From: Siphonodentalium dalli | Lineage: Eukaryota; Mollusca; Scaphopoda; Gadilida; Siphonodentaliidae | Direction: 5' to 3' | Assembly (NCBI GenBank): GCA_032622095.1 | Contig: CP136062.1 | Span: 154,374,875 to 154,438,874, forward strand | DNA: 64,000 nucleotides | Translations under genes and position numbers: made by a program | Shown here: positions 37,791-59,756 of the stretch, piece after piece | How positions within the stretch are numbered: position 1 is the first letter of the stretch | Layout of the letters: each line of letters begins with the position of its first letter | Notes under the pieces: model-generated | Database searches by the model: none | Told to the model about the DNA's origin: nothing | Seen by the model: only the letters and a program-made list of their open reading frames with translations

Positions 37791-39736
37791 AATTGGTATG
37801 GAAAAATGCAGATTTTCTGTGATAGGTGGCTTTAGGTGCAGTTAGTATGCTTTATTTATAACTCAATCGTGCTATTATGCACGAAATATAGAGTCATATA
37901 ACATATTTACAGTGTATTTACATAATGTGACATTTGGCCGTCGAATTCGGGGTCCTTTGTTTGTGTAATCATCATCATTATTATCATCATCAACATGATC
38001 ATCATCATCATCATCATCATCATCGTCGTCATCATCATCGCCAAGATAGTAATAAAATGAAATATACACAAACAATGCTTAGTCGTAAACCATATAATTA
38101 TGTAGAATGTCTTTCCCAACATGGCCATAGCACACGTGTTACCCCATAAATTTTGATATTGGAATAGTTAGAAATTAGACATGAAAAATAACACTAAAAA
38201 CAGCGTCTTCACCATCGGTTTCAGTAGTAAAATAGGATTAAATCTGTATTAAATTATTTTTCCTCAAAATGTGTCTACATTGTTTACACGCCGTTCCCAC
38301 GACACAACTTTCAAATTATATGTACAGCAGTGCGGAACACAAAGCTCACATCTTCTACTTTCATATGATATCTATTTTTTCCGTGTGTTAAACAAATATA
38401 GTCAAAACAGTTAATCCATGTAGATAATTAACACAGTTCCAATGCTATAGTATATACGTGCGTGTGTACACACTCTCCCCGCCTGTCTACCTTGTCTACA
38501 GTTGATTTCAACATAAAAACATGCAATGGACGGATCTACGTAAATTGTGAAAAACTATATATGCACATATACTTAGCTAGATCATATCATGAATCTCTAC
38601 CCTGGCTATACGCCCGTAGAGATAATTCTACACCAGTTCAAGTGATGTGAAATTTTTCATGTTCAGATAGGGAAGTTTATAAACATTTTTTTTTAAACCA
38701 GTACAGCTAATATATTCTTAGTTAATATCGTTCCTCAGTAAATAGTGCATGTATTCCACTGTGTACGTAGTTCAAGAAGATCCTAACTCGATGTTGCATG
38801 AAATATGTCACTGTGTTGAGTCGAGTTTGATTGGCATCCTTTACAATCATGAACTTTCTCACGGGTAATCAATTCAATGTTTATTTCGATGTCGACTCAC
38901 AAAAGTCACAGACAAATCATGCAATCTGGAGTGTAACACCCCCTATATTGTGAAATATATTATGAAGGAACAAGTAATAAATAAATATATATAGTCACTG
39001 AGTTGTTTTTTCAATGCTATAAAGTTCTCCGTCAGAACATTAAAACGTTCCCGTTGAATATGATCTCTACGATAGCCAAAGTATAAATTCATGACATGAT
39101 CTAATACTTGGCGACCCAATCCTATATTCTATAAGAAATATATTCAGCATATACTGCAAATCATGCAATTTACTACGATATTGATGTTGGATTTAAATTT
39201 AAATACAAATGCATCTCAACATAATTACTTATTATACATGTATAAGTAATATTATGTTCCTTTTTACCCCCCCCCCCCCCCCCCAAATCGCACCATCGCC
39301 ATGTCTCGGATAAATTCAGGATGACCGTCCTATCATTAAATTCTTGCCAACAAAGACCATTTTTCTCACATGGACACACGTGTACGATCAAATTGAAACC
39401 CCATTATCGCGTACCGGAAGTTGCATCATCCAAAATGGAAGGTTGGAAAAAATGTTCGGGACCCAAACAGTACGATTTTGTTGTAATTTTCATGACCTGA
39501 ATGCGTCTTTATGGGACATATATTGGTCGTAGAAAGGTAGTTTGGGTATTTATCTACCTATTTTGATACCGGGAAAATTTCAAAAACGAATATTATTTTG
39601 TGTATTTTGGAGCGCGAACCTCCATGTGGCTTTAAGGCAACAGTTAGACTAAAATACATCATGCATTATGACCGTAAGATATCACTCTTTCCGATAAATG
39701 CTGCGTTTTGTATTGATTTATTGTATTTGATTCCAA
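37791..39736. other. No gene seen; simple repeats
   Basis: A (CAT)n tract lies at 37968-38040 and a C-run at 39267-39284. A palindrome around ATACATGTAT lies at 39215-39256. No exon signal was recognised. Confidence 0.5.
37968..38040. repeat. (ATC)n trinucleotide microsatellite
   Basis: Imperfect ATC/CAT triplets. The minus-strand frame would read Asp-rich but has no gene context. Confidence 0.95.
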
Positions 39737-40080
39737 TCTACTATATATTTTGAGACTTCCGTATATATATCTGTGTGTATATATATATGTGTGTGGGTAC
39801 TTCATACAATCGAATACGGCTGCGCGGATTGCAATTGAGCTCAAACTTCCTATCTAAGGGTAAAATCCCACGGACACCATCGGCGTCGCATTTTGGACAA
39901 GCTCAGAGCACCGCTTCTCCCTCCCAACCACAAAAAATGGCACCGTGGGGTTTAACACACCAACGCTCCTTATATCTTCCATATTGGGAGATGTATCCGG
40001 TTAACGCTCTTTATATAGTCATCGACGTATTTATCTAAGAGGCGTAACTCTACATTTTGTATTAGTTTTCGCTATCGAGA

Positions 40081-40452
40081 ACTACATAGCCGTGATCTCC
40101 CAAGCCGTGAATGCCAACAACAATTACTCTTTTAGGGACGGGTACCATTAGTTAATATAGCCGTGAATGCCAACAACAACGACATAATGCCAACAACAAC
40201 GACTCTTTTAGGGACGGGTACCATTAGTTAATATAGCCGTGTTGGCCACCCAAGCCGTGGATGCCAACAACAACGACAAGCCGTAAATGCCAACAACAAC
40301 GACAAGCCGTGAATGCCAACAACAACGACATTGTTGGCATACCTCTTTTAGGGACGGGTGCCAACAACAACAAGCGGGAACTACATAGCCGTGATCTCCC
40401 AAGCCGTGAATGCCAACAACAATGAATATAGCCGTGAATGCCAACAACAACG
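40081..40452. repeat. Minisatellite of GCCGTGAATGCCAACAACAA units
   Basis: AAGCCGTGAATGCCAACAAC and variants recur at least eight times, interrupted twice by TTTTAGGGACGGGTACCATT. Single units occur inside later Helitron copies (for example near 48660, 49850 and 54410), so the motif belongs to the Helitron family. Confidence 0.88.
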
Positions 40453-40468
40453 ACGGGCGGTGTAGATA

Positions 40469-40735
40469 CGCTTGTCGTGGCCGTAGTATAAGTCATCGAA
40501 TAATAATTATCTCCTACAAACCTAACTAACACTCATTGTATACCGGCATTCGCCAAATATTGATAACATGTACACCATTATATATTGACTAACACCAAAA
40601 TCAAAACATAGGTTAACGGGCTCACGCCCCAGATGGCTCCTTGGGCGCTGATGAATGTCCTCGGGCGGCAATATACGCTTGTCGTGCCGTAGTATAAGCC
40701 GTCGAATAATTATCTCCTCCAAAATCAACTAACAC
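40469..40735. repeat. ~65-bp direct repeat, spacing 206 bp
   Basis: ACGCTTGTCGTGGCCGTAGT starts at 40469 and ACGCTTGTCGTGCCGTAGTA at 40675; both continue through ATAATTATCTCCT to AACTAACACT. Confidence 0.85.
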
Positions 40736-40952
40736 TACTTAATTGACAACACTTCCTTTACAGAAATTGTGTATATATATACAATAATTTTACAAAACCT
40801 ATTAAAAACAACCCAAAAAAATCACAAAAACCAAAAAAATAAATATATTCACTGTGTATATATATACATTCACATATACCATTATACTATACTATACTAT
40901 GGGGGGTTTGGGATTTCTCCCGGGAAGATTTGAAAGGGGCGGAACCCCTCTC

Positions 40953-41453
40953 CTACAACCCACTTATGAATTTTAATTTGAAACATGGTATGGTATAACA
41001 TAAGCATGAATCGGTGAGATGAAAATGAAAATGATCTATTTTTAGTTTTGTTGGCTTCTTTTTTCTTCGGTTTGGTATTGCTGTTGTTGATGCTGTGGCT
41101 GTGTCTGAGTCGGAGCTGGATTTTTCTTCTGTTTTTTCCTGCTTTCCCCGTGGAGGAGGGTTTTTAGACAAGTATATATTCTCTTCTTGAATTTTGATGA
41201 TGCCTTGTGCGGGGTCCAGCTCGTCTGGTCCTCTGTATATATGGTGATCCCTCAGCAGGAAGAAATCGCGGTTGGTGATTGGATATTTCATTCCTGCTGC
41301 GTGGTGTTCGAGAATCGCATCTTTGAGGTCATCACGCTCTTGTTCGACCTGATGTGGTGTTGGCGACGCCGGCTTCACCTCGTACTTCGGCGTCGGAGGG
41401 ACGGAGATTGTGCTATCCGCCCCTGGTGGAGAAAGGCTGGGTGGTGTTTCCAT
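40953..41453 (-). CDS. Second frame of copy 1 (METPPSL; HHAAG..FFLLRD block)
   Basis: 166 codons, in the same frame as the ORF above and separated from it by one TAG. It reads METPPSLSPPGADSTIS, then KYEVKPASPTPHQVEQERDD, then HHAAGMKYPITNRDFFLLRD, then a Ser/Asp- and Lys-rich tail. The HHAAG..FFLLRD block is conserved in copy 4, which argues for past selection on this protein. Either TAG is a nonsense mutation in a ~336-residue protein, or two proteins are made by stop-restart. No catalytic motif is evident. Confidence 0.5.
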   Translation of the reverse strand: METPPSLSPPGADSTISVPPTPKYEVKPASPTPHQVEQERDDLKDAILEHHAAGMKYPITNRDFFLLRDHHIYRGPDELDPAQGIIKIQEENIYLSKNPPPRGKQEKTEEKSSSDSDTATASTTAIPNRRKKKPTKLKIDHFHFHLTDSCLCYTIPCFKLKFISGL

Positions 41454-41963
41454 CTAAACGTCGAAACTGGCGGCAGGAACATCGGGGGTGGTATCCGCGT
41501 CCCTGTCTCCGCTTGTCTCTGTGACGACAGCAGGGATCTCCGGCAGATCTACGGAGTCCCTGCTAGCTGGTCTGATGTCACCTGTCTCCATGCAGGCCGG
41601 GTCGTCTGTGCGTCTCTCAGACAACTCCGGCCTACCGGCTGTGACACTGGATGGTTGAACCACACGGGGAGGGGTGACCGGCAGATCAACAGTCACCCCC
41701 TTCTTTTTCTTCCATTTCGCCCGTCTGGCTGCGTCCCTTCTCCTTCGAGCTGGCGTCTTTCTCTTAGGAGGCTCCTCTTTCATGGTACGGCTGGTCTTGG
41801 CGTTCCTGCTCCGGGTAGAAGATCTCTGGATACCAGCATCCTCCGTCCGGAATTCAACACAAAGAACCAAATAGCCCCTGTTAGACTGGAGACTCCAGCT
41901 AACAGTGTCCACTATTTGAGATCTTTGTATTGCAGCTAACGCGGCGTCAGGGATTAGCTCCAT
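41454..41963 (-). CDS. MELIP-family ORF, copy 1, basic nucleic-acid-binding-like protein
   Basis: 169 codons starting MELIPDAALAAIQRSQ. The order is an N-terminal ~45-residue block (VSWSLQSNRGYLVLCVEFRT), a strongly basic stretch PPKRKTPARRRRDAARRAKW at about residues 71-90, then an acidic, Ser/Thr/Pro-rich tail ending PDVPAASFDV. The basic stretch suggests nucleic-acid binding, as in Gag- or ORF1-like proteins of retroelements. That is inference; I do not recognise the family. It ends in TAG at 41454-41456, immediately followed by the in-frame ATG of the next frame. Three related copies nearby support it being a real protein family. Confidence 0.55.
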   Translation of the reverse strand: MELIPDAALAAIQRSQIVDTVSWSLQSNRGYLVLCVEFRTEDAGIQRSSTRSRNAKTSRTMKEEPPKRKTPARRRRDAARRAKWKKKKGVTVDLPVTPPRVVQPSSVTAGRPELSERRTDDPACMETGDIRPASRDSVDLPEIPAVVTETSGDRDADTTPDVPAASFDV

Positions 41964-42164
41964 TGTCCATCGCTCTAAGCCTAATCCAATACCGTCTCAC
42001 TCGCCGGCATCAGCACGAGGGCGGTTGCTTCCAATAAAGGTTACAGACCGCACAACTCACTCGTACCGACGCTCTGACAAAAAGGAACTAATTAAGCCAA
42101 ATAAAATCTGACTTGTTCGCTCCACCTTCTGCCAGAGTCACATATACCATTTTTTGTTTTACTA

Positions 42165-43350
42165 TGGGGGGGTTTGGGATTTGACCAGGGAGGATTTGAA
42201 AGGGGCGGCACCCCTTTCCTACAACCAACTGTTGAATTTAATGAGATACATGTTATGGTAATACATAAGCATGAATTGGTGAAGGTGAAAAGGAAATGAT
42301 CTAGACATAATTATTTCTTTTTCTTGGCTTTCTTTTTTTTCTGTGTTGGAGTTCTGTTTGTTGTTGTTGTTGTTGGAGTTATGTTTGCTGTTGTTGTTGT
42401 TGGAGCACAGATGCCTGTTCTTCTTCCCGTTGTTGTTGATGGAGCGTAGCATCATTGTCAGAATATATATCTGCCATTGCTCTCTCATGTCTTTGTTGTT
42501 CTTCATGTCTTTGTTGTTTTTCTTCTACCAACCATCTCATGGTGTCTGCGATTAACTCCTCGTTTGAACGGGTGGCGGCTGTGCTGGTGTTGTCGCTAGT
42601 GATGGTAGAGCTGGGGGACACCGAGATGTGTTGGTAATCCGGTGTCCGAGGTGTAAAACTATCCAGTTCCACGTCGAAGCTGGCGGCAGGAACATCTGGG
42701 GTGGTATCCACGTCCCTGTCTCCGCTAGCCTCGACGACGACAGCAGGGACCTCCGGCAGATCCACGGAATCCCTGCTAGCTGGTACTATGTCGTCAGTCT
42801 CCATGCAGGTCGAGTCGTCTGGGCGTCTCTCAGACAACTTCGACCCGCCGGCTATGACTTTGGACGGCTGAGCCAGACGGGGAGGGGCGACTGGCCGATC
42901 TACAGTCACCCCCTTCTGCTTCTTCCATTTAGCCCATCTGGCAGCGTCCCTTCTCTTCTGTGAGGGTGTTTTTCTTTTGGGAGGCCCCTTCTTCATGTTA
43001 CAGCGGGTCTTGGCGTCGTTCCTGTTCGCAGCAGAAGACTTCTGGGTACCAGCTTCTTCTGTCCTGAATTCTACACAGAGAACCAGAGAGCCCCTGTTAG
43101 CTTGTAGTGTCCAACTAACAGCATCAACTAACCGGCTTTTCTGTATAGCGGCCAACGCGGCTTCAGGGATTAGCTCCATAATCCGTCCCGAGCCTAATCC
43201 AAAACCATCTCAGTCTGGCGTCTCCACGAGGGCAGTTACAACCTGGGTCGCGACCGCACAACTCACTCGTGTAGACGCTCTAGCTGACGAGGAACTAATT
43301 AAGCCAAATAAAATCTGACTTGTTCGCTCCACTCGCAGCTTCACCCCACC
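42165..43350 (-). mobile_element. MELIP-family element, copy 2
   Basis: Leader from about 43350 (GGAGCGAACAAGTCAGATTT), ORF from 43179, and 3' hairpin at about 42194-42215 (AAGGGGCGGCACCCCTTTC). It is head-to-head with copy 3, whose leader begins near 43545 on the other strand. Confidence 0.65.
42379..43179 (-). CDS. MELIP-family ORF, copy 2, with Gln-rich coiled-coil tail
   Basis: 266 codons starting MELIPEAALAAIQKSRLV. It keeps the N-terminal block, the basic stretch (PPKRKTPSQKRRDAARWAKW) and the acidic PDVPAASFDVELDS region. It then continues into LADTMRWLVEEKQQRHEEQ-like heptads and a poly-Gln end (QQQQQQT). This is the longest intact version, so it best shows the full order: conserved head, basic block, acidic linker, coiled coil. 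The likely role is RNA or DNA packaging, by analogy with element-encoded nucleic-acid-binding proteins; this is not proven. Confidence 0.6.
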   Translation of the reverse strand: MELIPEAALAAIQKSRLVDAVSWTLQANRGSLVLCVEFRTEEAGTQKSSAANRNDAKTRCNMKKGPPKRKTPSQKRRDAARWAKWKKQKGVTVDRPVAPPRLAQPSKVIAGGSKLSERRPDDSTCMETDDIVPASRDSVDLPEVPAVVVEASGDRDVDTTPDVPAASFDVELDSFTPRTPDYQHISVSPSSTITSDNTSTAATRSNEELIADTMRWLVEEKQQRHEEQQRHERAMADIYSDNDATLHQQQREEEQASVLQQQQQQT

Positions 43351-43544
43351 CCGCTCCATTGTCTATCGTCGTTCATATTTATATCAACCAATAAACTACA
43401 ACAAGAACATGAAGATGATTTCACTTACGCCCGCGCCACGGGAACCCATACAAATTGGGGGGAAAACGCAATCATTTCTATAACAGGCACTACCCGCCAC
43501 CCGTATAATAACAAATTCACTTTCAGAAGCTAGAATCTGCTCTG

Positions 43545-44757
43545 GCAGCAAGTGGAGCGAACAAGTCAGATTTTATTTGGCTCTATTAGTTCCTTGTATT
43601 GTCAGAGCGTCGGTACGAGTGATTTGAGCGGTCTGTAACCTTAATTGGAAGCAACCGCCCTCGTGCTGATGCCGGCGAGTGAGACGGTTTTGGATTAGGC
43701 TTAGTGCGACGGACAATGGAGCTAATCCCTGACGCCGCGTTAGCAGCAATAGAGAGATCTCAAATTGCGGATATTGTTAGCTGGAATCTCCAGTCTAACA
43801 GAGGCTATTTGACTCTCTGTGTTGAATTTCGGACGGAAGATGCTGGAAACCAGAGACCTTCTACCCGGAGCAAGAAAGCCAAGACCAGCCGTATACCATG
43901 AAAGAAGAGCCTCCTAAGAAAAAGACGCCAGCTCGAAGGAGAAGGGACGCAGCCAGACGGGCGAAATGGAAGAAGAAGATGGGGGCGACCGTTGATCGAC
44001 CGGTCACCCCTCCCCGTGTGGCTCAGCCGTCCAAAGTCATAGCCGGCGGGTCGAAGTTGTCTGAGAGACGCCCAGACGACTCGACCTGCATGGACACTGA
44101 CGACATTGAACCAGCTAGCAGGGACTCCGTGGATCTGCCGGAGGTCCCTGCTGTCGTCGTCGAAGCTTGCGGAGACAGGGACGTGGATACCACCCCAGAT
44201 GTTCCTGCCGCCAGCTTCGACGTGGAACTGGATAGCTATACACCTCGGACACCGGATTACCAACACACCCCGGTGTCCTCCAGCTCCACCAGCACCAGCA
44301 CAGCCAACACCCTCTCTCATGAAGAGTATACGGCCCTTGCCCGTTCTGTGGAAAAGACTATCGCTGAGTCAAACAGAGTTATGGAAGAACAACGATTACG
44401 AACCGAACAAACCGAGAAAGAAAATGTCCGATGGATGAAAGAAAATGCTCAGCGACAGAAAGAATTACAACAGGAGCAGACAGAACGGGATAAAAGATAC
44501 GAAGCTGCGATGCAACAATCCCAACAAACACTAGATGAAGCTCAACAACGGAAAACAAAGAAACCAAAGAAGAAAACATCATAATATGTCTAGACCATCT
44601 TTTTTTTTTTTTGTATTCATCTCATGCTATGTCGAAGTGTCATAACTTTCCATAGCCCCTATATCACTTCACAAGTGGGTTGTAGGAGAGGGGTTCCGCC
44701 CCTTTCAAATCTTCCCTGGGCTCACTCCCAAAACCCCTAATAAATAAAAAATAAAGC
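43545..44757 (+). mobile_element. MELIP-family element, copy 3
   Basis: Plus strand: leader with GGAGCGAACAAGTCAGATTT (from 43555), ORF start at 43716, 3' hairpin GAGAGGGG-TTCCG-CCCCTTTC (44686-44706), and an A-rich end (AATAAATAAAAAATAAAG). GAAGCTAGAATCT stands before it and AAGCTAGAATCT after it, an apparent short direct repeat. Confidence 0.65.
43716..44584 (+). pseudogene. MELIP-family ORF, copy 3, frameshifted
   Basis: The first frame (43716-43901) reads MELIPDAALAAIERSQ and stops at TGA. A second frame opens at the overlapping ATG (43898) and runs to 44584. Compared with copy 1, two extra bases just before the ATG break the frame. The second part holds the basic block (ARRRRDAARRAKWKKK), the acidic PDVPAASFDVELDS region, and a long charged coiled coil (LARSVEKTIAESNRV...QQRKTKKPKKK). 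The ATGA overlap could in principle allow coupled translation, but the simplest reading is a frameshift mutation. Confidence 0.6.
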
Positions 44758-45215
44758 TAGAATCTACCATCACCGCCCCTCCGACGCTGAGGTATGAGGA
44801 GAGGCCGGCGTCGTCCATCACCAAAGAACGGATGGAAAAAGAACGAGAAATAATCAAAACAACGATTGTAACACACCACGCAGCAGGAACGACTTACCAT
44901 CTTACCAAATACGAATTCTTCCTGCTGCGGGATCGCCAGCTCTACTTACATCGAGACAAAAGTGAGAGAACATCTGGAACAGTAACAGTCAATCCAACAC
45001 AGACATATGGCAAATTCACACTGGCCTATTAGAAGCACCCACGACCACCAGAAAAAAAGAAAATGATCATAAAGAATCTCCAAATTGCTATCTTTTTTTC
45101 ATTTTTTTTCTTATATTATTTCTCTAATAAAAGCAAAATCATGAGGGATTAAGGAAAGGGCCCTTCGGCCCTTTCGACAATCCCGGGGCTAGCTACCCCA
45201 AACAACCCAATTAAA
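44758..45215 (+). mobile_element. MELIP-family element, copy 4, 5'-truncated
   Basis: Follows copy 3 directly. An open frame from 44763 to 45032 (TITAPPTLRYEERPASS, ATG at 44832, THHAAG, EFFLLRDRQLYLH) aligns with the second frame of copy 1. The 3' region has a perfect 9-bp hairpin (GAAAGGGCC-CTTC-GGCCCTTTC, 45154-45175) and an A-run before ACCTAG. Confidence 0.6.
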
Positions 45216-46260
45216 AAAAAAACCTAGCGATCATGTCATACACATTCCACTCACCTAACAACACCAACCAAGTGGGATCCGGCTTGAAAACCGACCCAGC
45301 ACTAGCTTGGGTGGGGTGCAGGAACTACAGACCCATAAGTGGTCATAGCTCTCAACGAGTTAGGAGCGGCATATACCAAAATATGCTCGTCCCGCTTGCC
45401 GCTCTGACATTTCTTCGGGAGCAGGACGGCTCACGGCTCAAGAACACACTGACATGTACTAAATGTATACATAATTTTAACAAAATAAAGAAATTACCAA
45501 AACAATATATAAAACCAAAAAAATCTATTGAATGTAATCATATATATATCTGTACAAAACCATTCACATATATCGTCAACTATTAAAGTCTATCTTGTAC
45601 ATTATCAATCAGATTTACTTCATTTATCAAAACCCAAATAATTCTGCACATAAAATTGTCCGAGTCTTCACTTACGCCCGTGCTATGGGATGTAGGGCGG
45701 TCCATACAGTAACAACGAAATAACCAAAACATACTGTCTCTGCGCATTTGGCTATAGCAGAATCGCGGTATGATGGTGCATTGAATCACATTGAATCACA
45801 CGCTCTGCCTTGCGGTTGTTTTTTAAATAACTAACAAACTAACACTATTTTAAATTATAACACGGGCCTCGTTCCTTTTTCAGCGCACCATATGACACGC
45901 TCAGCTTAACCATATATTAAAGGGACCCACCGGGACACCCCTCACACCCTCACACCCCATATTAAAGCTCGTGGGCTCTTCCCCAAATAATCCATCCAAT
46001 TAATTCAATCAAAGAGATAAGATTAATTCAATTGTGTCCGCTTTTGCCGTGTTCAGACATGACTATTTTCTGTGTGCTATATCTCCAACAACAACAAACC
46101 GTGGGGTGAAGGAGAAGATCACTCGATCTTTTCGACCATCCCGGGCGCTTCGCGCCCATCTACTCACTTTATTATTACAACAACGACATATGTTATTTTC
46201 TCTTTACCGCAACGGCCAAATGCATTTATCTTGATTAAAAAAGGCAGAAAAATGCGTGTT
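45216..46260. other. No gene seen; right flank of the insert
   Basis: TCACTTACGCCCGTGCTATG near 45668 repeats TCACTTACGCCCGCGCCACG near 43421, so part of this belongs to the same repeat cluster. Otherwise AT-rich. Confidence 0.4.
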
Positions 46261-46607
46261 GTCTGATTGTCTGATTGTTATGTCTGTCGTTCCTAGGAAC
46301 GGGGGACATTTTCATCGGAATCTTTTAGGGACGGGTACTGTCTGATTCTTATGTCTTCTTCATCTTAATCGGGTAAAATAAGGTCTAATCGGGTAAAATA
46401 TTGAAAATCCAAAAATTAAATTAAAAAATTAATCAAAAAATTTAATTCAAAAATCCAGTAAATTAAAAATGCACAATTAACTCATGTTATAAAAAATAAA
46501 TTAATATTAACTCATTGAAAAAAAAAATTTAATTCAAATATTAATTTAAAAAATCAAAAATTGTCATGTTTCTGACAAACGCCGCCAGTGGCGGGCTAAC
46601 CTGCTAG

Positions 46608-48102
46608 TCTACTATATATTTTGAGAACTACGTAAATATATGTGTAAATATATGTGTATATATATTTGTCCTCTATAGACTCGAAAACGGCTGGACCGAT
46701 TGGGCTCAAACTTCCCATCTAAGGGTAAAATGCCACGGGAATGGTCGTCGCTGTGTTTTGGAGAAGCTCCCAGCACCCATTCTCCCCAGTCACAAAAACG
46801 GCACTGTGGGGGTTAATCGCGCTGATAGTTAAAGAGCGTTCGTATCCGCAGTGTCGTTGATAAAGAGCGTCTATATACACGACGAGTATAAATACGGTTC
46901 CATTGACCGTCTCGAGACGAAATTTCGTACTTAATTTCGTACTTAGGGGTTCCAAAGAACGGGGGAGATTTGTATCGGGTCAGTTTTTCCGCGCGAGGAG
47001 ACCTTGACCTTCAAACGGGTACCCACAAATGATCTATATGTGCGTGTCCTTTATAGACTCGAACCGATTGAGCTCAAACTTGCTAACTATGGGTACTTTT
47101 GTGCGGGAAGTGTCATGGACGGGTCAAATTGTGACCCATACCTGACCTTGAAAATGATCGATTCAAGGTCAAATCGTATAAAACTGGCGGATTTCGACGA
47201 ATTTTTACACCTAAGTGCAGCACACGTGTCTCGGAAGCTGTTGCAATTGCTTTTTCGAACAAAGCCATGAAACGAACCACACTCTTATGACTAATGTGTA
47301 GGTTTTCTACACAAAATGTGTAGCCCTGCTACACAATCATTATTCAATTTTGATCTTAAACATATTTGTGTAGTATATGTGTAGTTTAATATTCGTACAC
47401 ATATTGTGTAACAATTTTTACACATAAATGGGTAAATTTTTACACATTTATACACAACTGTGTGTATAAAATCAACACATATCCCTTACACATTTTGTGT
47501 AGGTTCTTACACACACAGTTCGTAGACAAGAAATGCAAGTTCAGTACTCCGACCTGTGGGTATAGTATTAAAGATATATGCAGATTTATATGTTAAAACT
47601 TACATGGCGCATAGTGGGATGTAGTATTTTGTTCTGTACTGTGAGTTTTTGCTTTGAATGAACAAACCAGGGTCGAGGCGTGATTGCATAATATTAGTAT
47701 TATTACAACAATCATAACAAGAGTCTAAGCGCAGTAATCGCCATGAAAGTTTTAACAAATAAATCCTCATATACTATTAATACTATACCCACACATTGGA
47801 ATTCCGAACTTACATCCTTGTCTACGATCGCTGTAGATTGTATTCCAAAAAATATACTCAAACAATATGGCCGTCACGTAGCAGACTATGAAACTGAAGG
47901 CATCGCAATGCGCATGCTCGACGTTCTTACACAATTGCGTGAAACAAAATATACACATTATGTGTAGAACGGCACTGGTCAATGTATTTGTATGTAAAAC
48001 TACAAATTGCTATGTGTATTAACCGGGTTTACACATTTGATGTGTAATAGCTTCTACACATTAGTTATAAGAGTGCACGCCAGTGGCGGGCTAACCTGCT
48101 AG
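46608..48102 (+). mobile_element. Helitron unit 2 (interrupted by a MITE)
   Basis: Starts TCTACTATATATTTTGAG and ends in the GGCGGGCTAACCTGCTAG terminus. Its interior differs from later units and includes GACCTTGA-type motifs like those at 23.9-24.8 kb. A 796-bp MITE sits 27 bp before the CTAG, breaking the left arm of the terminal hairpin region. Confidence 0.82.
47280..48075. mobile_element. 796-bp MITE rich in TGTGTAG motifs, nested in Helitron unit 2
   Basis: CACTCTTATGACTAATGTG at 47280 is inverse, with one mismatch, to CACATTAGTTATAAGAGTG ending at 48075. CA borders both sides, a possible 2-bp target duplication. Subterminal TGTGTAG/CTACACA and TTTTACACAT motifs recur many times. A 74-codon frame (47743-47967) has no recognisable domain. 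Confidence 0.82.
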
Positions 48103-49240
48103 TCTATCTATACTATATATTTTGAGACTTCGTATATATGTACTTCATAGAATCCAAAACGCGTGTAAAGATTGAGCTCAAACTTCCTATGTAAGTGTCA
48201 AATCTCACCGACACGACCGTGGTCGCGGTTTAGGGAAGCTCAGAGCACCCGTTCTCCAATCTCAAATCACCGCAAAGGCACGGCGGGGGTTAATCAAGTG
48301 ATTATTTAATGAGCGTTTGTTTTTGACGCATCTCTATAAAGAGCGTCTGTTTCCCATTCAACGTTATTCGCATCTGCAGAGTTATACGGGAACGCAAACG
48401 TTATCGCTCGAAATTTATTCCCTGCGAGCACGGATGGCGCGCTTTGTTTTTACAGTATATATACCGAAATCATCCCACATAATCACGAATATAGCATCAG
48501 ATTTCTCCCCAGATATACCGTTATAAAGCTACTGGAATCTGCCAATCTACGGGAAATTCCAGGGAATGCTGATTGAGCTCAAACTTGCTACCTACGGGAA
48601 GTGTCATATATATGAGTGTGTCCTTTATAGACTCTAACCGATTGAGCTCAAACTTGCCCAAGCCGTAAATATCAACAACAACGATATTGCTACCTACGGG
48701 GAGCAACGTTATTAGCATCTGCAGAATTATGCAGAGAGAAAGTGCTTTCCTATTTTTAGAACGCAACACATGTTTACGTCGCGTTGGTGATTGGGGTTCA
48801 CAACGGGGTTAATTGACTGTCCGCTCTTTGCGACGATGAGGTTCACGGCGGGGACTATTGACCAAACACTCACAATTTCGTCTTTTGCATCAGATACCAA
48901 CACCTCGACCGATCGGGACGAAACTTGGTACGTGAGTGTAGTTTGACCAGGTGGTCGTCGCTGTCGTATTGGCGAGCCCGTGCGACGCCCGTGCAGCGCA
49001 TGCGCAGACGAGATATCGGAAACGGGTGGAGCTATCGACTTGAAATTTGGTATGTGAATGTATCTTGCCCCGGATACGAATTTTATCGGGTCGCCGAGCC
49101 GTGCGACGCCAGATTCGCGCATGCGTGAAATTTGGTTTTTGAGTAGCCCGGTCCTGTACGGGGTTACATTGAAAAACTAAAATTAATGGATCGACCAAAG
49201 CCATCGGACGAATGCCGCCAGTGGCGGGCTAACCTGCTAG
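48103..49240 (+). mobile_element. Helitron unit 3, chimeric 3' end
   Basis: Head TCTATCTATACTATATAT. Near 49140-49165 it contains TTTTTGAGTAGCCCGGTCCT and GTACGGGG, which resembles the alternative terminus of unit 5 but lacks CTAG. It then runs on to the usual GCCGCCAGTGGCGGGC-CTAG end. Confidence 0.85.
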
Positions 49241-50568
49241 TCTATCTATACTATATATTTTGAGACTTCGTATATATGTATGTATGTACTTCATAGAATC
49301 CAAAACGCGTGTACATATTGAGCTCAAACTTCCTATGTAAGTGTCAAATCTCACCGACACGACCGTGGTCGCAGTTTAGAGAAGCTCAGAGCACCCGTTC
49401 TCCAATCTCAAATCACCGCAAAGGCACGGCGTAGGTTAATCAAGTGATTATTTAATGAGCGTTTGTTTTTGACGCATCTCTATAAAGAGCGTCTGTTTGC
49501 CATTCAACGTTATTTGCATCTGCAGAGAGATATACGGAACATACATTAAATTTAAAAAACATTTGTTTCTGACCAACCCTGCGAGCACGGATGGCGCGCT
49601 TTGTTTTTACAGTATATAGTTATATACCGAAATCATCCCAGATAATCACGAATATAGCATCAGATTTCTCCCCAGATAATACCGTTATAAAGCTACTGGA
49701 ATCTGCCAATATACGGGAAATTCCAGGGAATGCCGATTGAGCTCAAACTTGCTACCCACGGGAAGTGTCATATATATGAGTGTGTCCTTTATAGACTCGA
49801 ACCGATTGAGCTCAAACTTGCTAAATAAGAAAATAGCACCCAAGCCGTAAATATCAACAACAACGATATTGCTACCTAAGGGGAGCAACGTTATTAGCAT
49901 CTGCAGAATTATGCAGAGAGAAAGTGCTTTCCTATTTTTAGAACGCAACACATGTTTACGTCGCGTTGGTGATTGAGGTTCTCAACGGGGTTAATTGACT
50001 GTCCGCTCTTTGCGACGATGAGGTTCACGGCGGGGACTATTGACCAACACTCACAATTTCGTCTTTTGCATCAGATACCAACACCTCGACCGATCGGGAC
50101 AAAACTTGGTACGTGAGTGTAGTTTGACCAGGTGGTCGACCCTGTCGTATTGGCGAGCCCGTGCGACGCCCGTGCAGCGCATGCGCAGACGAGATATCGG
50201 AAACGGGTGGAGCTATCGACTTGAAATTTGGTATGTGAATGTATCTTGCGCCGGGTACAAATTTTATCGGGTCGCCGAGCCCGTGCGACGCCCGTGCAGC
50301 GCATGCGCAGACGAGATCTAGGAAACGGGTGGAGCTATCGATTTGAAATTTGCTATGTGAATGTATCTTGCACCGGGTACAAATTTTATCGGGTCGCCGA
50401 GCCCGTGCGACGCCAGCTTCGCGCATGCGCAGACCAGATCTCGGAAACGGGTGGAGCTACCGGGTACAATTTTTTCTTATTGAAACGCGTGGAGCTAAAA
50501 ATTAAAAACAAATATATAAAAAAATGTCATGTTTCGGACAAGCCGCCGGTGGCGGGCTAACCTGCTAG
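49241..50568 (+). mobile_element. Helitron unit 4
   Basis: 1,328 bp. Head TCTATCTATACTATATAT; three ~122-bp internal repeats (near 50154, 50278 and 50400); tail AAGCCGCCGGTGGCGGGC and CTAG. Confidence 0.88.
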
Positions 50569-51106
50569 TCTCATATATATTTTGAAGACCTCTGTCTGTA
50601 TGTTTGTCTGTCTGTCATTAATACAAATTTACGATTCTCGACCGATCGGAACGAAACTTGGTACGTGTGTGTAGTTTGACCAGGCGGTGAACGTTGTCGT
50701 ATTGGCGAGCCCGTGCGGCGCCCGCTTCGCGCATGCGCAGACGAGATCTCGGAAACGGGTGGAGCTATCGACTTGAAATTTACTATGTGAATGTATCTTG
50801 CCCCGGATACGAATTTTATCGGTGTCGCCGAGCCCGGGCCGTGCGACACCAGCTTCGCGCATGCGCAGACGAGATCTCGGAAACGGGTGGAGCTATCGAC
50901 TTGAAATTTGCTATGTGAATGTATCTTGCCCCGGATACGAATTTTATCGGGTCGCCGAGCCCGTGCGACGCCAGCTTCGCGCATGCGCAGACGAGATCTC
51001 GGAAACGGGTGCTATCGACTTGAAATTTGGTTTTTGAAACGGGTGGAGCTATCGACTTGAAATTTGGTTTTTGAATAGCCCGGACAACGTCGGGCTCATC
51101 GGCTAG
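50569..51106 (+). mobile_element. Helitron unit 5, second terminus type
   Basis: 538 bp. Head TCTCATATATATTTTGAAGA and tail CCCGGACAACGTCGGGCTC then ATCGGCTAG differ from all other units, but the interior has the same ~122-bp repeats. It is therefore a distinct Helitron family sharing internal satellite with its neighbours. Confidence 0.8.
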
Positions 51107-52424
51107 TACTATATATTTTGAGACTTCGTATATATGTATGTATGTACTTCATAGAATCCAAAACGCGTGTAAAGATTGAGCTCAAACTTCCTATGTCAGT
51201 GTCAAATCCCACCGACACGACCGTGGTCGCAGTTTAGAGAAGCTCAGAGCACCCGTTCTCCAATCTCAAATCACCGCAAAGGCACGGCGTGGGTTAATCA
51301 AGTGATTATTTAATGAGCGTTTGTTTTTGACGCATCTCTATAAAGAGCGTCTGTTTGCCATTCAACGTTATTTGCATCTGCAGAGAGATATACGGAACAT
51401 ACATTAAATTTAAAAAACATTTGTTTCTGACCAACCCTGCGAGCACGGATGGCGCGCTTTGTTTTTACAGTATATAGTTATATACCGAAATCATCCCAGA
51501 TAATCACGAATATAGCATCAGATTTCTCCCCAGATATACCGTTATAAAGCTACTGGAATCTGCCAATCTACGGGAAATTCCAGGGAATGCCGATTGAGCT
51601 CAAACTTGCTACCCACGGGAAGTGTCATATATATGAGTGTGTCCTTTATAGACTCGAACCGATTGAGCTCAAACTTGCTAAATAAGAAAATAGCCCCAAG
51701 CCGTAAATATCAACAACAACGATATTGCTACCTACGGGGAGCAACGTTATTAGCATCTGCAGAATTATGCAGAGAGAAAGTGCTTTCCTATTTTTAGAAC
51801 GCAACACATGTTTACGTTGCGTTGGTGATTGAGGTTCACAACGGGGTTAATTGACTGTCCGCTCTTTGCGACGATGAGGTTCACGGCGGGGACTATTGAC
51901 CAACACTCACAATTTCGTCTTTTGCATCAGATACCAACACCTCGACCGATCTGGACGAAACTTGGTACGTGAGTGTAGTTTGACCAGCTGGTCGTCGCTG
52001 TCGTATTGGCGAGCCCGTGCGACGCCCGTGCAGCGCATGCGCAGACGAGATATCGGAAACGGGTGGAGCTATCGACTTGAAATTTGGTATGTGAATGTAT
52101 CTTGCGCCGGGTACAAATTTTATCGGGTCGCCGAGCCCGTGCGACGCCCGTGCAGCGCATGCGCAGACGAGATCTAGGAAACGAGTGGAGCTATCGACTT
52201 GAAATTTGCTATGTGAATGTATCTTGCACCGGGTACAAATTTTATCGGGTCGCCGAGCCCGTGCGACGCCAGCTTCGCGCATGCGCAGACCAGATCTCGG
52301 AAACGGGTGGAGCTACCGGGTACAAATTGTACTTATTGAAACGCGTGGAGCTAAAAATTAAAAAAATATATATAAAAAAATGTCATGTTTCGGACAAGCC
52401 GCCGGTGGCGGGCTAACCTGCTAG
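51107..52424 (+). mobile_element. Helitron unit 6
   Basis: 1,318 bp. Joined to the previous CTAG as CTAG|TACTATATATT, lacking the usual TCTA. Closest to unit 10 (shared GATCTGGACG and ACAAATTGTACTTATTG). Confidence 0.88.
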
Positions 52425-53743
52425 TACTATATATTTTGAGACTTCGTATATATGTATGTATGTACTTCATAGAATCCAAAACGCGTGTAAAGATTGAGCT
52501 CAAACTTCCTATGTCAGTGTCAAATCCCACCGACACGACCGTGGTCGCAGTTTAGAGAAGCTCAGAGCACCCGTTCTCCAATCTCAAATCACCGCAAAGG
52601 CACGGCGTGGGTTAATCAAGTGATTATTTAATGAGCGTTTGTTTTTGACGCATCTCTATAAAGAGCGTCTGTTTGCCATTCAACGTTATTTGCATCTGCA
52701 GAGAGATATACGGAACATACATTAAATTTAAAAAACATTTGTTTCTGACCAACCCTGCGAGCACGGATGGCGCGCTTTGTTTTTACAGTATATAGTTATA
52801 TACCGAAATCATCCCAGATAATCACGAATATAGCATCAGATTTCTCCCCAGATATACCGTTATAAAGCTACTGGAATCTGCCAATATACGGGAAATTCCA
52901 GGGAATGCCGATTGAGCTCAAACTTGCTACCCACGGGAAGTGTCATATATATGAGTGTGTCCTTTATAGACTCGAACCGATTGAGCTCAAACTTGCTAAA
53001 TAAGAAAATAGCCCCCAAGCCGTAAATATCAACAACAACGATATTGCTACCTACGGGGAGCAACGTTATTAGCATCTGCAGAATTATGCAGAGAGAAAGT
53101 GCTTTCCTATTTTTAGAACGCAACACATGTTTACGTCGCGTTGGTGATTGAGGTTCACAACGGGGTTAATTGACTGTCCGCGCTTTGCGACGATGAGGTT
53201 CACGGCGGGGACTATTGACCAACACTCACAATTTCGTCTTTTGCATCAGATACCAACACCTCGACCGATCGGGACGAAACTTGGTACGTGAGTGTAGTTT
53301 GACCAGTTGGTCGTCGCTGTCGTATTGGCGAGCCCGTGCGACGCCCGTGCAGCGCATGCGCAGACGATATATCGGAAACGGATGGAGCTATCGACTTGAA
53401 ATTTGGTATGTGAATGTATCTTGCGCCGGGTACAAATTTTATCGGGTCGCCGAGCCCGTGCGACGCCAGCTTCGCGCATGCGCAGACGAGATCTAGGAAA
53501 CGGGTGGAGCTATCGACTTGAAATTTGCTATGTGAATGTATCTTGCACCGGGTACAAATTTTATCGGGTCGCCGAGCCCGTGCGACGCCAGCTTCGCGCA
53601 TGCGCAGACCAGATCTCGGAAACGGGTGGAGCTACCGGGTACAAATTTTTCTTATTGAAACGCGTGGAGCTAAAAATTAAAACAAAATATATAAAAAAAT
53701 GTCATGTTTCGGACAAGCCGCCGGTGGCGGGCTAAGCTGCTAG
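52425..53743 (+). mobile_element. Helitron unit 7
   Basis: 1,319 bp. CTAG|TACTATATATT head. The end reads GGGCTAAGCTGCTAG instead of AACCTG, a variant shared only with unit 11, as is GGAAACGGATGGAGC. Confidence 0.88.
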
Positions 53744-53768
53744 TCTATACTATATATTTTGAGACTTC

Positions 53769-53805
<37 letters not shown>

Positions 53806-54799
53806 ATAGAATCCAAAACGCGTGTACAGATTGAGATCAAATTTCGTATGTAAGTGTAAAATCCCACCGACACCGCCGTAGTCGCGGTTTAGAGAAGCTC
53901 AGAGCACCCGTTCTCCAATCTCAAATCACCGCAAAGGCACGGCGGGGGTTAATCAAGTGATTATTTAATGAGCGTTTGTTTTTGACGCATCTCTATAAAG
54001 AGCGTCTGTTTCCCATTCAACGTTATTCGCATCTGCAGAGTTATACGGGAACGCAAACGTTATCGCTCGAAATTTATTCCCTGCGAGCACGGATGGCGCG
54101 CTCTGTTTTTACAGTATATAATTATATACCGAAATCATCCCAGATAATCACGAATATAGCATCAGATTTCTCCCCAGATATACCGTTATAAAGCTACTGG
54201 AATCTGCCAATCTACGGGAAATTCCAGGGAATGCCGATTGAGCTCAAACTTGCTACCTACGGGAAGTGTCATATATATGAGTGTGTCCTTTATAGACTCT
54301 AACCGATTGAGCTCAAACTTGCTAAATAAGAAAATAGTCCCCAAGCCGTAAATATCAACAACAACGATATTACTAACTACACGTTTTCGGCAATGTGAAA
54401 GTTTTCGGGGAGCCGTGATGCCAACAACAACGACCCGAAGACAGATTTCCCGACGGGAAGCGTTTGTTTTAAATTCAATGCAATGTTATCGTAGAGAGAT
54501 TTCACGAAACAAAGAATGCGTTGTCTGTCGTTCCTAGGAAGGGGGGATTTCTACGGGTAAATTTTTCCGCCAGAAACAAAAAAATTAATTAAAACAATTT
54601 AATAAAAACAATTTAAAATTAAAAAAAATTAACAATAAAATAACAATTCAGAAACGAAATATATTAAATTTAAAAAACATTAAATTCATATTCAAAAATA
54701 AAAAACAAAAATAAATAAAAACAAAATAATTACAAAAATGTCATGTTTCTGAAACAAAGCCATGGGACGAATGCCGCCAGTGGCGGGCTAACCTGCTAG
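53744..54799 (+). mobile_element. Helitron unit 8
   Basis: 1,056 bp. Head TCTATACTATATATTTTGAG followed by a (TG)n run. It lacks the 122-bp repeats and instead carries CACGTTTTCGGCAATGTG and an A-rich stretch (54590-54740). The first half matches unit 12. Confidence 0.87.
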
Positions 54800-55915
54800 T
54801 CTATACTATATATTTTGAGACTTCGTATATATGTGTGTGTGTACTTCATAGAATCCAAAACGCGTGTACAGATTGAGCTCAAACTTCCTATGTAAGTGTC
54901 AAATCCCACCGACACGACCGTGGTCGCGGTTTAGAGAAGCTCAGAACACCCGTTCTCCAATCTCAAATCACCGCAAAGGCACGGCGGGGGTTAATCAAGT
55001 GATTATTTAATGAGCGTTTGTTTTTGACGCATCTCTATAAAGAGCGTCTGTTTGCCATTCAACGTTATTTGCATCTGCAGAGAGATATACGGTACATACA
55101 TTAAATTAAAAAAACATTTGTTTCTGACCAACCCTGCGAGCACGGATGGCGCGCTTGTTTTTACAGTATATAGTTATATACCGAAATCATCCCAGATAAT
55201 CACGAATATAGCATCAGATTTCTCCCCAGATATACCGTTATAAAGCTACTGGAATCTGCCAATCTACGGGAAATTCCAGGGAATGCCGATTGAGCTCAAA
55301 CTTGCTACCCACGGGAAGTGTCATATATATGAGTGTGTCCTTTATAGACTCGAACCGATTGAGCTCAAACTTGCTAAATAAGAAAATAGCCCCCAAGCCG
55401 TAAATATCAACAACAACGATATTACTAAATACACGTTTTCGGCAATGTGAGAGTTTTCGGGGAGCCGTGATGCCAACAACAACGACCGAAGCCCTGAATG
55501 CCAACAACAGATTCAATGCAATGTTATCTATTATGCAGAGAGATTTCACGACATTACGACGGGTACGGCAGACTCAAAATATTATGCAGACAGATTTCCC
55601 GACGGGAAGCGTTTGTTTTAAATTCAATGCAATGTTATCGTAGAGAGATTTCACGAAACAAAGAATGCGTTGTCTGTCGTTCCTAGGAAGGGGGGATTTC
55701 TACGGGTAAATTTTTCCGCCAGAAACAAAAAAATTAATTAAAACAATTTACAATTTAATTAAAACAATTTAAAATTAAAAAAAAGTAACAATAAAAAAAC
55801 AATTCAGAAACAAAATATATTAAATTTAAAAAACATTAAATTCATATTCAAAAATGTCATGTTTCTGAAACAAAGCCATGGGACGAATGCCGCCAGTGGC
55901 GGGCTAACCTGCTAG
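54800..55915 (+). mobile_element. Helitron unit 9
   Basis: 1,116 bp. Same interior type as unit 8 (CACGTTTTCGGCAATGTG, GTTCCTAGGAAGGGGGG, A-rich tail). The GCCGTGATGCCAACAACAAC repeat is expanded near 55463-55508. Confidence 0.87.
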
Positions 55916-57235
55916 TACTATATATTTTGAGACTTCGTATATATGTATGTATGTACTTCATAGAATCCAAAACGCGTGTAAAGATTGAGCTCAAACTTCC
56001 TATGTCAGTGTCAAATCTCACCGACACGACCGTGGTCGCAGTTTAGAGAAGCTCAGAGCACCCGTTCTCCAATCTCAAATCACCGCAAAGGCACGGCGTG
56101 GGTTAATCAAGTGATTATTTAATGAGCGTTTGTTTTTGACGCATCTCTATAAAGAGCGTCTGTTTGCCATTCAACGTTATTTGCATCTGCAGAGAGATAT
56201 ACGGAACATACATTAAATTAAAAAAACATTTGTTTCTGACCAACCCTGCGAGCACGGATGGCGCGCTTTGTTTTTACAGTATATAGTTATATACCGAAAT
56301 CATCCCAGATAATCACGAATATAGCATCAGATTTCTCCCCAGATATACCGTTATAAAGCTACTGGAATCTGCCAATCTACGGGAAATTCCAGGGAATGCC
56401 GATTGAGCTTAAACTTGCTACCCACGGGAAGTGTCATATATATGAGTGTGTCCTTTATAGACTCGAACCGATTGAGCTCAAACTTGCTAAATAAGAAAAT
56501 AGCCCCCCAAGCCGTAAATATCAACAACAACGATATTGCTACCTACGGGGAGCAACGTTATTAGCATCTGCAGAATTATGCAGAGAGAAAGTGCTTTACT
56601 ATTTTTAGAACGCAACACATGTTTACGTCGCGTTGGTGATTGAGGTTCACAACGGGGTTAATTGACTGTCCGCTCTTTGCGACGATGAGGTTCACGGCGG
56701 GGACTATTGACCAACACTCACAATTTCGTCTTTTGCATCAGATACCAAAACCTCGACCGATCTGGACGAAACTTGGTACGTGAGTGTAGTTTGACCAGTT
56801 GGTCGTCGCTGTCGTATTGGCGAGCCCGTGCGACGCCCGTGCAGCGCATGCGCAGACGAGATATCGGAAACGGGTGGAGCTATCGACTTGAAGTTTGGTA
56901 TGTGAATGTATCTTGCGCCGGGTACAAATTTTATCGGGTCGCCGAGCCCGTGCGACGCCCGTGCAGCGCATGCGCAGACGAGATCTAGGAAACGGGTGGA
57001 GATATCGACTTGAAATTTGCTATGTGAATGTATCTTGCGCCGGGTACAAATTTTATCGGGTCGCCGAGCCCGTGCGACGCCAGCTTCGCGCATGCGCAGA
57101 CCAGATCTCGGAAACGGGTGGAGCTACCGGGTACAAATTGTACTTATTGAAACGCGTGGAGCTAAAAATTAAAAAAATATATATACAAAAATGTCATGTT
57201 TCGGACAAGCCGCCGGTGGCGGGCTAACCTGCTAG
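55916..57235 (+). mobile_element. Helitron unit 10
   Basis: 1,320 bp. CTAG|TACTATATATT head; equivalent of unit 6 in the second higher-order repeat. Confidence 0.88.
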
Positions 57236-58554
57236 TACTATATATTTTGAGACTTCGTATATATGTATGTATGTACTTCATAGAATCCAAAACGCGTGTA
57301 AAGATTGAGCTCAAACTTCCTATGTCAGTGTCAAATCCCACCGACACGACCGTGGTCGCAGTTTAGAGAAGCTCAGAGCACCCGTTCTCCAATCTCAAAT
57401 CACCGCAAAGGCACGGCGTGGGTTAATCAAGTGATTATTTAATGAGCGTTTGTTTTTGACGCATCTCTATAAAGAGCGTCTGTTTGCCATTCAACGTTAT
57501 TTGCATCTGCAGAGAGATATACGGAACATACATTAAATTTAAAAAACATTTGTTTCTGACCAACCCTGCGAGCACGGATGGCGCGCTTTGTTTTTACAGT
57601 ATATAGTTATATACCGAAATCATCCCAGATAATCACGAATATAGCATCAGATTTCTCCCCAGATATACCGTTATAAAGCTACTGGAATCTGCCAATATAC
57701 GGGAAATTCCAGGGAATGCCGATTGAGCTCAAACTTGCTACCCACGGGAAGTGTCATATATATGAGTGTGTCCTTTATAGACTCGAACCGATTGAGCTCA
57801 AACTTGCTAAATAAGAAAATAGCCCCCAAGCCGTAAATATCAACAACAACGATATTGCTACCTACGGGGAGCAACGTTATTAGCATCTGCAGAATTATGC
57901 AGAGAGAAAGTGCTTTCCTATTTTTAGAACGCAACACATGTTTACGTCGCGTTGGTGATTGAGGTTCACAACGGGGTTAATTGACTGTCCGCTCTTTGCG
58001 ACGATGAGGTTCACGGCGGGGACTATTGACCAACACTCACAATTTCGTCTTTTGCATCAGATACCAACACCTCGACCGATCGGGACGAAACTTGGTACGT
58101 GAGTGTAGTTTGACCAGTTGGTCGTCGCTGTCGTATTGGCGAGCCCGTGCGACGCCCGTGCAGCGCATGCGCAGACGAGATATCGGAAACGGATGGAGCT
58201 ATCGACTTGAAATTTGGTATGTGAATGTATCTTGCGCCGGGTACAAATTTAATCGGGTCGCCGAGCCCGTGCGACGCCCGTGCAGCGCATGCGCAGACGA
58301 GATCTAGGAAACGGGTGGAGCTATCGACTTGAAATTTGCTATGTGAATGTATCTTGCACCGGGTACAAATTTTATCGGGTCGCCGAGCCCGTGCGACGCC
58401 AGCTTCGCGCATGCGCAGACCAGATCTCGGAAACGGGTGGAGCTACCGGGTACAAATTTTTCTTATTGAAACGCGTGGAGCTAAAAATTAAAAAAAAATA
58501 TATAAAAAAATGTCATGTTTCGGGCAAGCCGCCGGTGGCGGGCTAAGCTGCTAG
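57236..58554 (+). mobile_element. Helitron unit 11
   Basis: 1,319 bp. Equivalent of unit 7, sharing the AAGCTGCTAG end. Confidence 0.88.
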
Positions 58555-59756
58555 TCTATACTATATATTTTGAGACTTCGTATATGTGTGTGTGTGTGTG
58601 TGTGTACTTCATAGAATCCAAAACGCGTGTACAGATTGAGATCAAATTTCGTATGTAAGTGTAAAATCCCACCGACACCGCCGTAGTCGCGGTTTAGGGA
58701 AGCTCAGAGCACCCGTTCTCCAATCTCAAATCACCGCAAAGGCACGGCGGGGGTTAATCAAGTGATTATTTAATGAGCGTTTGTTTTTGACGCATCTCTA
58801 TAAAGAGCGTCTGTTTCCCATTCAACGTTATTCGCATCTGCAGAGTTATACGGGAACGCAAACGTTATCGCTCGAAATTTATTCCCTGCGAGCACGGATG
58901 GCGCGCTCTGTTTTTACAGTATATACCTTTGGTATATACCGAAATCATCCCAGATAATCACGAATATAGCATCAGATTTCTCCCCAGATATACCGTTATA
59001 AAGCTACTGGAATCTGCCAATCTACGGGAAATTCCAGGGAATGCCGATTGAGCTCAAACTTGCTACCTACGGGAAGTGTCATATATATGAGTGTGTCCTT
59101 TATAGACTCGAACCGATTGAGCTCAAACTTGCTAAATAAGAAAATAGCCCCCAAGCCGTAAATATCAACAACAACGATATTGCTACCTACGGGGAGCAAC
59201 GTTATTAGCATCTGCAGAATTATGCAGAGAGAAAGTGCTTTCCTATTTTTAGAACGCAACACATGTTTACGTCGCGTTGTTGATTGAGGTTCACAACGGG
59301 GTTAATTGACTGTCCGCTCTTTGCGACGACGAGGTTCACGGCGGGGACTATTGACCAACACTCACAATTTCGTCTTTTGCATCAGATACCAACACCTCGA
59401 CCGATCGGGACCAAACTTGGTATGTGAGTGTAGTTTGACCAGGTGGTCGTCGCTGTCGTATTGACGAGCCCGTGCGACGCCCGTGCAGCGCATGCGCAGA
59501 CGAGATATCGGAAACGGGTGGAGCTATCGACTTGAAATTTGGTATGTGAATGTATCTTGCGCCGGGTACAAATTTTATCGGGTCGCCGAGCCCGTGCGAC
59601 GCCAGCTTCGCGCATGCGCAGACCAGATCTCGGAAACGGGTGGAGCTACCGGGTACAAATTTTTCTTATTGAAACGCGTGAAGCTAAAAATTAAAAAAAA
59701 ATATTTTAAAAATGTCATGTTTCGGACAAGCCGCCGGTGGCGGGCTAACCTGCTAG
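58555..59756 (+). mobile_element. Helitron unit 12, last of the array, mosaic
   Basis: 1,202 bp. The first half matches unit 8 (TG run, CACCGACACCGCCGTAGTCG); the second half matches units 4/7/11 but has two ~122-bp repeats where those have three. CTAG ends at 59756 and host T follows. Confidence 0.87.

Follow-up and report, generated by a model that had tools for sequence, protein, structure and literature searches.

A twelve-unit head-to-tail Helitron array in Siphonodentalium dalli and its probable growth by serial insertion at Helitron 5' ends

Described Helitron arrays and the locus in question

Canonical Helitrons carry TC at the 5' end and CTRR at the 3' end, preceded by a hairpin some 10-13 nt from the 3' terminus, and are inserted between A and T; Helentrons and HINEs are marked by subterminal inverted repeats and by insertion between T and T. 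Helitrons in tandem arrays are often cited as footprints of rolling-circle read-through. Here we describe an array of twelve abutting head-to-tail Helitron units, which occupies positions 39737-59756 of a 64,000-nt stretch of the scaphopod Siphonodentalium dalli genome (assembly GCA_032622095.1, contig CP136062.1, positions 154,374,875 to 154,438,874 of the forward strand; hereafter the window), and which was probably built by serial self-targeted Helitron insertion followed by block duplication.

Among the closest described elements is Helraiser of bats. Of 1,751 Helraiser insertions, 46 were not between A and T, and AT-rich sequence is preferred, most strongly on the 3' side. In vitro the Helraiser transposase cuts at the 5' TC and at an AT inside the left end, and precise head-to-tail circles are formed (PMC4778049). 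The array shares with Helraiser the TC start, the hairpin, the CTAG end and the A-T target, and the Helraiser circles have joined ends, whereas resident left ends are not reported as a target in the available text of that study. In barley Helitrons the target is likewise asymmetric downstream of A-T, with AAA lying 8 bp downstream (PMC5738225), whereas in the present genome TATA[A/T] starts at 3-8 and matches the element's own head. The Helraiser and barley targets both agree with a transposase that reads the sequence downstream of the cut.

Head-to-tail clusters, in which different Helitrons sometimes adjoin, are described from bat, silkworm and maize and are ascribed to a bypassed terminator or to rolling-circle copying (PMC4067079, PMC5876387), whereas the scars described below favour repeated insertion. 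The truncated Helitron arrays of plant centromeres (Xiong et al. 2016, via the review PMC12628747) are also head-to-tail repeats, but in many of them numerous 5' ends go with a single 3' end; a truncated array of this type was rejected for the present locus, where 12 heads and 12 tails are found and both ends occur in 12 of 12 units. In the fungal FoHeli a Helitron lies 2 bp upstream of the partial 5' end of a second one, and a triple was read as two insertions into the 5' end or as rolling circle; these are single cases of non-canonical Helitrons, and no scar count is given in the accessible part of the account (PMC5148889). Dimers of transposable elements that arise by insertion-site preference (McGurk and Barbash, via PMC12628747) resemble the array in that repeated insertion yields tandem units, but a Helitron head is not described as the target in the review's account. 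A paired TCTA scar, a scar test or a match between target motif and head was not found in the literature searched, outside which most subscription papers lay, which makes this weak evidence for novelty.

Units, joints and scars of the array

The features of the array, all on the plus strand, are as follows.

39736-39737, plus strand: 5' edge, host A and then the first base of U1
39737-46607, plus strand: U1, diverged head with TCTACT start, about 5 kb of cargo, AT-rich tail, CTAG
46608-48102, plus strand: U2, diverged head with TCTACT start, inverted-repeat element inside
48103-49240, plus strand: U3, head with extra TCTA at 48103-48106
49241-50568, plus strand: U4, head with extra TCTA at 49241-49244
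50569-51106, plus strand: U5, another Helitron family with head TCTCATATATATTTTGAAGACC and tail ATCGGCTAG
51107-52424, plus strand: U6, TACT start, head without TCTA
52425-53743, plus strand: U7, TACT start, head without TCTA
53744-54799, plus strand: U8, full TCTATACT head, AT-rich tail module
54800-55915, plus strand: U9, full TCTATACT head, AT-rich tail module
55916-57235, plus strand: U10, TACT start, apparent copy of U6
57236-58554, plus strand: U11, TACT start, apparent copy of U7
58555-59756, plus strand: U12, full head, first 636 bp or so copied from U8
51107-54380, plus strand: block copy 1 (U6, U7 and the first part of U8), 98.6% identical to copy 2 at 55916-59190
59757-59768, plus strand: host 3' flank T-CC-TATATATAA, with the target T and a TATA-like stretch from base 4

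The twelve units fill the interval exactly as the first-pass annotation had delimited it, and zero bases intervene at any joint, in agreement with its statement that the units abut without host bases. The A at 39736 and the T at 59757 bound the whole row, as had also been claimed, every unit (12 of 12) has the predicted CTAG end and is followed by T, and 14 of 15 host 3' flanks begin with T. The heads had been called Helitron-like, which is correct for the units; 8 of 12 heads start with TC, and the starts of U6, U7, U10 and U11 read TACT. Of the proposed hairpin tails, a palindrome near the terminus is present in 12 of 12 units, 10-14 nt before the end, whereas minimum-energy folding of the final 45 nt gave a plain hairpin in only some units. 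In 10 of the 12 units the palindrome is CCGCC-N3-GGCGG and ends 13 nt from the terminus; U2 has a 4-bp version, and U5 a different palindrome (AGCCCG..CGGGCT, 10 nt before the end). The TC starts (8 of 12), the CTAG and hairpin ends (12 of 12) and the A-T insertion are those of canonical Helitrons; a Helentron or HINE identity was rejected on the A-T flanks and the CTAG end, subterminal repeats not having been searched for.

Behind the CTAG of the preceding unit, the head starts with TCTATACT in U8, U9 and U12, with TCTACT in U2 and with TCTCAT in U5. The scarred starts are TCTA followed by TCTATACT in U3 and U4, and TACT in U6, U7, U10 and U11. The extra TCTA and the missing TCTA are the complementary pair that is expected when a Helitron inserts at the A-T within a resident head, TCTA-TACT (the hyphen marks the point of insertion), because TCTA is then placed before the newcomer and TACT after it. 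The TACT starts of U6, U7, U10 and U11 may accordingly be heads cut by insertion, where U10 and U11 are taken, from the pattern of shared sites given below, as copies of U6 and U7 through block duplication. One consistent order would be the insertion of U6 into U7, of U5 into U6, of U4 at the A-T before U5, and of U3 between the two TCTA; this order would leave two extra TCTA and two TACT heads, which matches U3, U4, U6 and U7.

In the mechanism that we favour, a Helitron would insert at an A-T that has TATA[A/T] a few bases downstream. The heads of the array carry such a site, A-T...TATATATTTTG, so that each inserted Helitron would bring along a new target at the 5' end. At the 5' edge of a resident, a newcomer would give a clean CTAG-TC joint, and the clean joints may thus have been made by insertion like the scarred ones; a newcomer at the A-T inside the TCTATACT head would be preceded by TCTA and followed by the resident head cut to TACT. 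Insertion at the edge would retain the A on the left and add a new head, so that growth could continue, and its repetition by several related families would turn one host site, A-TCCTATATATAA, into a row. Later recombination or unequal exchange would have duplicated U6-U8 as U10-U12 and reassorted the head and tail modules.

The units are of mixed descent. U4, U6, U7, U10 and U11 have 97.8-99.2% identity over about 1,320 bp, a second head cassette is common to U3, U8 and U12, and in U8 and U9 an AT-rich tail replaces the body with 122-bp repeats, while U1 has a length of 6.9 kb and an unrelated cargo. The heads of U1 and U2 are 72-75% like each other and like those of U3, U4, U8 and U9 (the four others compared), and the last 25 bases of U1, U2, U3, U4, U8 and U9 have at most one difference; with uniform decay and 74% identity, the probability that a pair agrees at all 25 bases is about 5e-4. 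For the window array and 46 other loci, 41 of the 101 joints with both neighbours in named head families lie between different families and 60 between like families; the 150 joints classified are completed by 19 with an unnamed family and 30 unclassified. A looser count of 150 joints, in which head-like motifs inside units were taken as neighbours, gave 62 like, 60 unlike and 28 unclassified. Loci L001-L030 were picked for likeness to U7, L031-L041 are consecutive joint clusters on contig C1 (36.1-49.0 Mb), and L042-L051 were picked for carrying both scars; the joint classification omits L001, L002, L003 and L013 (copies of the window), L012 (overlap), L052 and L053, and the looser count omits all of these but L053.

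The first-pass annotation had attributed the row to one rolling-circle event with read-through, which would have required like units with identical joints. The array instead has mixed families and five joint classes, and its units belong to different families with ends of their own (U1, U2, U5 and the main type); therefore one template cannot have produced it. The gain and loss of TCTA is not predicted by read-through, and the nearly identical tails on heads about 26% apart also count against it. Clean CTAG-TC joints are equal to the joined ends of Helraiser circles (PMC4778049), and a concatemer is the usual reading of tandem arrays (PMC5876387, PMC4067079); with 1,931 clean joints in the genome and the 60 like-family joints among 101, such an origin is possible for clean joints between like units. 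For the whole row, however, a twelve-unit concatemer made by one read-through or by copying of a joined-end circle, and diverged later, is very improbable in view of the foreign U5, the diverged U1 and U2, their tails, the TCTA scars and the 41 joints between different families.

The block duplication is seen in the self-match of the window (51091-54380 against 55900-59190, 98.6%). Of the sites that two of the five like units have in common, U6 and U10 share 5, U7 and U11 share 2, and U4 and U10 share 1, whereas none is shared by U6 and U7, U10 and U11, U6 and U11, or U7 and U10. The block copies also have private differences, at 3 sites in U6, 9 in U10, 8 in U7 and 2 in U11. These differences, together with similar arrays at many loci of the nine-contig assembly, argue against the row being a misjoined or expanded repeat, and an assembly artefact is regarded as highly unlikely.

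Joints and scars across the genome

Exact patterns were searched for on both strands of the genome (2.23 Gb, 9 contigs). The main head type gave 5,986 joints, against 1 for the reversed-pattern control, and the U5 type gave 9,586, against 0 for the control; the joint pattern is therefore not due to chance. Main heads form the 1,931 clean joints mentioned above and are without TCTA behind CTAG at 1,520 joints, and at least one extra TCTA is carried by 871 heads, at least two by 230 and at least three by 71. Some U1-like heads likewise start with TACT, and starts with TAA were seen on other head types.

Both TCTATACT and TACT starts are common behind CTAG, which could mean that the transposase cuts the 5' end at a variable A-T and that mobile copies start with either; in keeping with this, the bottom strand of the Helraiser left end is cleaved in vitro at an AT inside that end (PMC4778049). 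However, only 16 TACT heads stand behind a host-type A, namely an A not preceded by T (a filter that covers three of the four possible preceding bases), compared to 684 full heads behind A outside any extra TCTA (1,555 minus 871). TACT is therefore not an alternative mobile end, and variable cutting, contradicted by this host-edge count, has very little probability.

The two scars tend to lie in the expected order. Of the 100 TACT heads listed for C1, 28 have a head with extra TCTA no more than 3 kb upstream and 7 have one no more than 3 kb downstream; at distances up to 20 kb these numbers are 46 and 14, and on the opposite strand no such head lies within 5 kb of the 100 listed. L045 is a two-unit array that reads host A-TCTA-(unit)-TACT(unit)CTAG-T host, and L042 probably has the same layout. 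L048 was rejected as a clean two-unit array, since its 3' flank is head-like and two extra TCTA are present, and the other loci among the ten picked for both scars are longer or mixed arrays.

Arrays of near-constant spacing, in which each unit has an extra TCTA, were observed at C1:158159617-158162993 (1,116 bp three times) and at C4:77240110-77252069 (about 2.2 kb or slightly more); they are local expansions of scarred units. Such stretches, together with the 98.6% block duplication and the pairing of its sites, are also what would be expected if a short array had grown mainly by unequal exchange, in the manner of a satellite, with scars inherited from a few founding joints. Unequal exchange creates neither foreign units nor the first scars, though, and scarred joints are found at many separate places on C1, L042 and L045 being independent scars at unrelated loci with unrelated flanks. 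Unequal exchange did contribute, but as a later step and not as the origin, and as the main source of the array it appears unlikely.

Target motif, transposase source and other repeats

Head-like flanks were filtered out of the host 3' flanks beforehand, and the one of 15 without an initial T was omitted; of the 14 left, of which L043, and possibly also L042, is followed by a Helitron head, 12 have TATA[A/T] starting 3-8 bases past the insertion point. The background in the window, without the array and a second Helitron pair, is 5.9% of 7,987 A-T sites (P 1e-13), or 19.4% when AT-rich sites are considered (P 2e-7). On the 5' side the motif is found in 3 of 21 host flanks against a background of 8.4%. 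The rule also fits 4 of 5 flanks of another tail family; of these five, L009 and L029 resemble heads, and each of the remaining three follows the rule. L053 was among the loci drawn on for both sets of flanks.

In a main head preceded by A, A-T sites lie at positions 0, 4, 9, 11 and 13. TATA[A/T] starts at 8 for site 0 and at 4 for site 4 in main heads, and at 6 for site 0 in heads of the U1 and U5 types; the deeper sites either lack it or have its start at 1, and for the first internal U5 site the starts are 1 and 3. As this placement matches that in host flanks, the sites used are those resembling host targets. The deeper A-T sites of the main head gave 5 matches genome-wide, none of which is the exact expected scar, and insertion at an internal A-T of a U5-type head was seen at 0 of the 100 joints listed, most of which are clean. 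Random choice among the A-T sites of a head was rejected on these two results.

The transposase may read the same motif in host and head alike. We lean towards the view that Helitron 5' ends act as landing pads, in which an A-T with a TATA-like stretch is recognised in the host and in the left end, and each insertion re-creates the target. If this is true, head-to-tail stacking would be a common fate of these Helitrons (15,572 joints of two head types), and a transposon could become a satellite-like array without rolling-circle read-through. From sequence alone, the four-base scar distinguishes repeated insertion from read-through, and it favours repeated insertion at 1,520 joints of this genome, which correspond to fewer events, as some are copies. 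If this holds, a test would be at hand for any genome with Helitron arrays, and target choice would be testable with a reconstructed transposase.

Several observations weigh against serial insertion or its target rule. The window has four heads without TCTA and only two with extra TCTA; block duplication covers two of the four, but one block copy then begins exactly at a unit edge, and the proposed order for U5 and U4 leaves the joint of U9 and U10 in need of an independent insertion or of a breakpoint exactly there. Genome-wide, the extra TCTA total at least 1,172, which is 77% of the 1,520 missing, and the joint counts include copies made by duplication. No head with extra TCTA lies within 20 kb upstream of 54 of the 100 TACT heads listed on C1, for which decay, other head types or rearrangement could be the reason. 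Clean joints between like units could be concatemers, and Helraiser was without local hopping in experiment, according to the available text (PMC4778049). Heads of the U5 type have, among the 100 joints listed, mostly clean ones and no internal one, which a pure model of insertion at any A-T in a head would not predict; conversely, L052 reads CTAG-TCTCA-TCTATACT, an apparent insertion into the internal U5 site, contrary to a strict motif rule. The target rule was also drawn post hoc from a small number of flanks, and decayed heads of other families could be among these.

A source of transposase is present in the genome. The autonomous Helitron with the same termini, for which the first-pass annotation had suggested a search, was found in part: L052 combines a main-type head with Rep (Helitron_like_N) and PIF1-helicase domains, but its frame is broken and its tail lies beyond the stretch read. 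Helitron_like_N has 151 matches in the genome, several in open frames of 1,600-1,700 codons, and 0 in 14 control genomes; with L052, these matches place RepHel coding capacity, own or of a partner, at the genome level. One match, at G000:C1:13743912-13744451 (minus strand), has an open frame of 1,614 codons between joints of the main-type array C1:13715559-13759221 and is possibly an autonomous unit inside the array. A weaker-scoring group in open frames of about 1,800-2,860 codons (for example C8:4875782-4876378, C8:82475387-82475983, C1:169483708-169484307) is perhaps a second Helitron lineage. No Helitron transposase was found in the open reading frames (ORFs) scanned in U1 and the array, the Pfam scan of nine ORFs of the window gave only reverse transcriptase and endonuclease matches of a LINE (long interspersed nuclear element) and weak sub-threshold ones, and the tail motif had 0 matches in viral contigs.

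Other repeats were observed within the units and elsewhere in the window. The U1 cargo contains, at 41242-44938, an ORF-like stretch three times (once inverted), whose copies are 80-89% alike and have no Pfam match. Close to its tail, U2 contains an element of about 796 bp (47280-48075) with long terminal inverted repeats, CACTCTTAT...ATAAGAGTG, and an inner palindrome at 47520-47827. The second head-to-tail Helitron pair, of another family, lies at about 24790-23910 on the minus strand, where the tail CATCAGCTAG is directly followed by the head TTTAATATATATTTTGG, and the second tail is decayed to CTAC and followed by TATTATATATTT. LINE-type sequence at about 3537-9225 on the minus strand is present as two incomplete copies and gave endonuclease and reverse transcriptase matches; one of its ORFs contains GDIEKNPGP, which we take to be a 2A-like ribosome-skipping motif. 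An imperfect palindrome of about 440 bp with inner repeats, which matches its own reverse strand at 80%, lies at 62655-63097.

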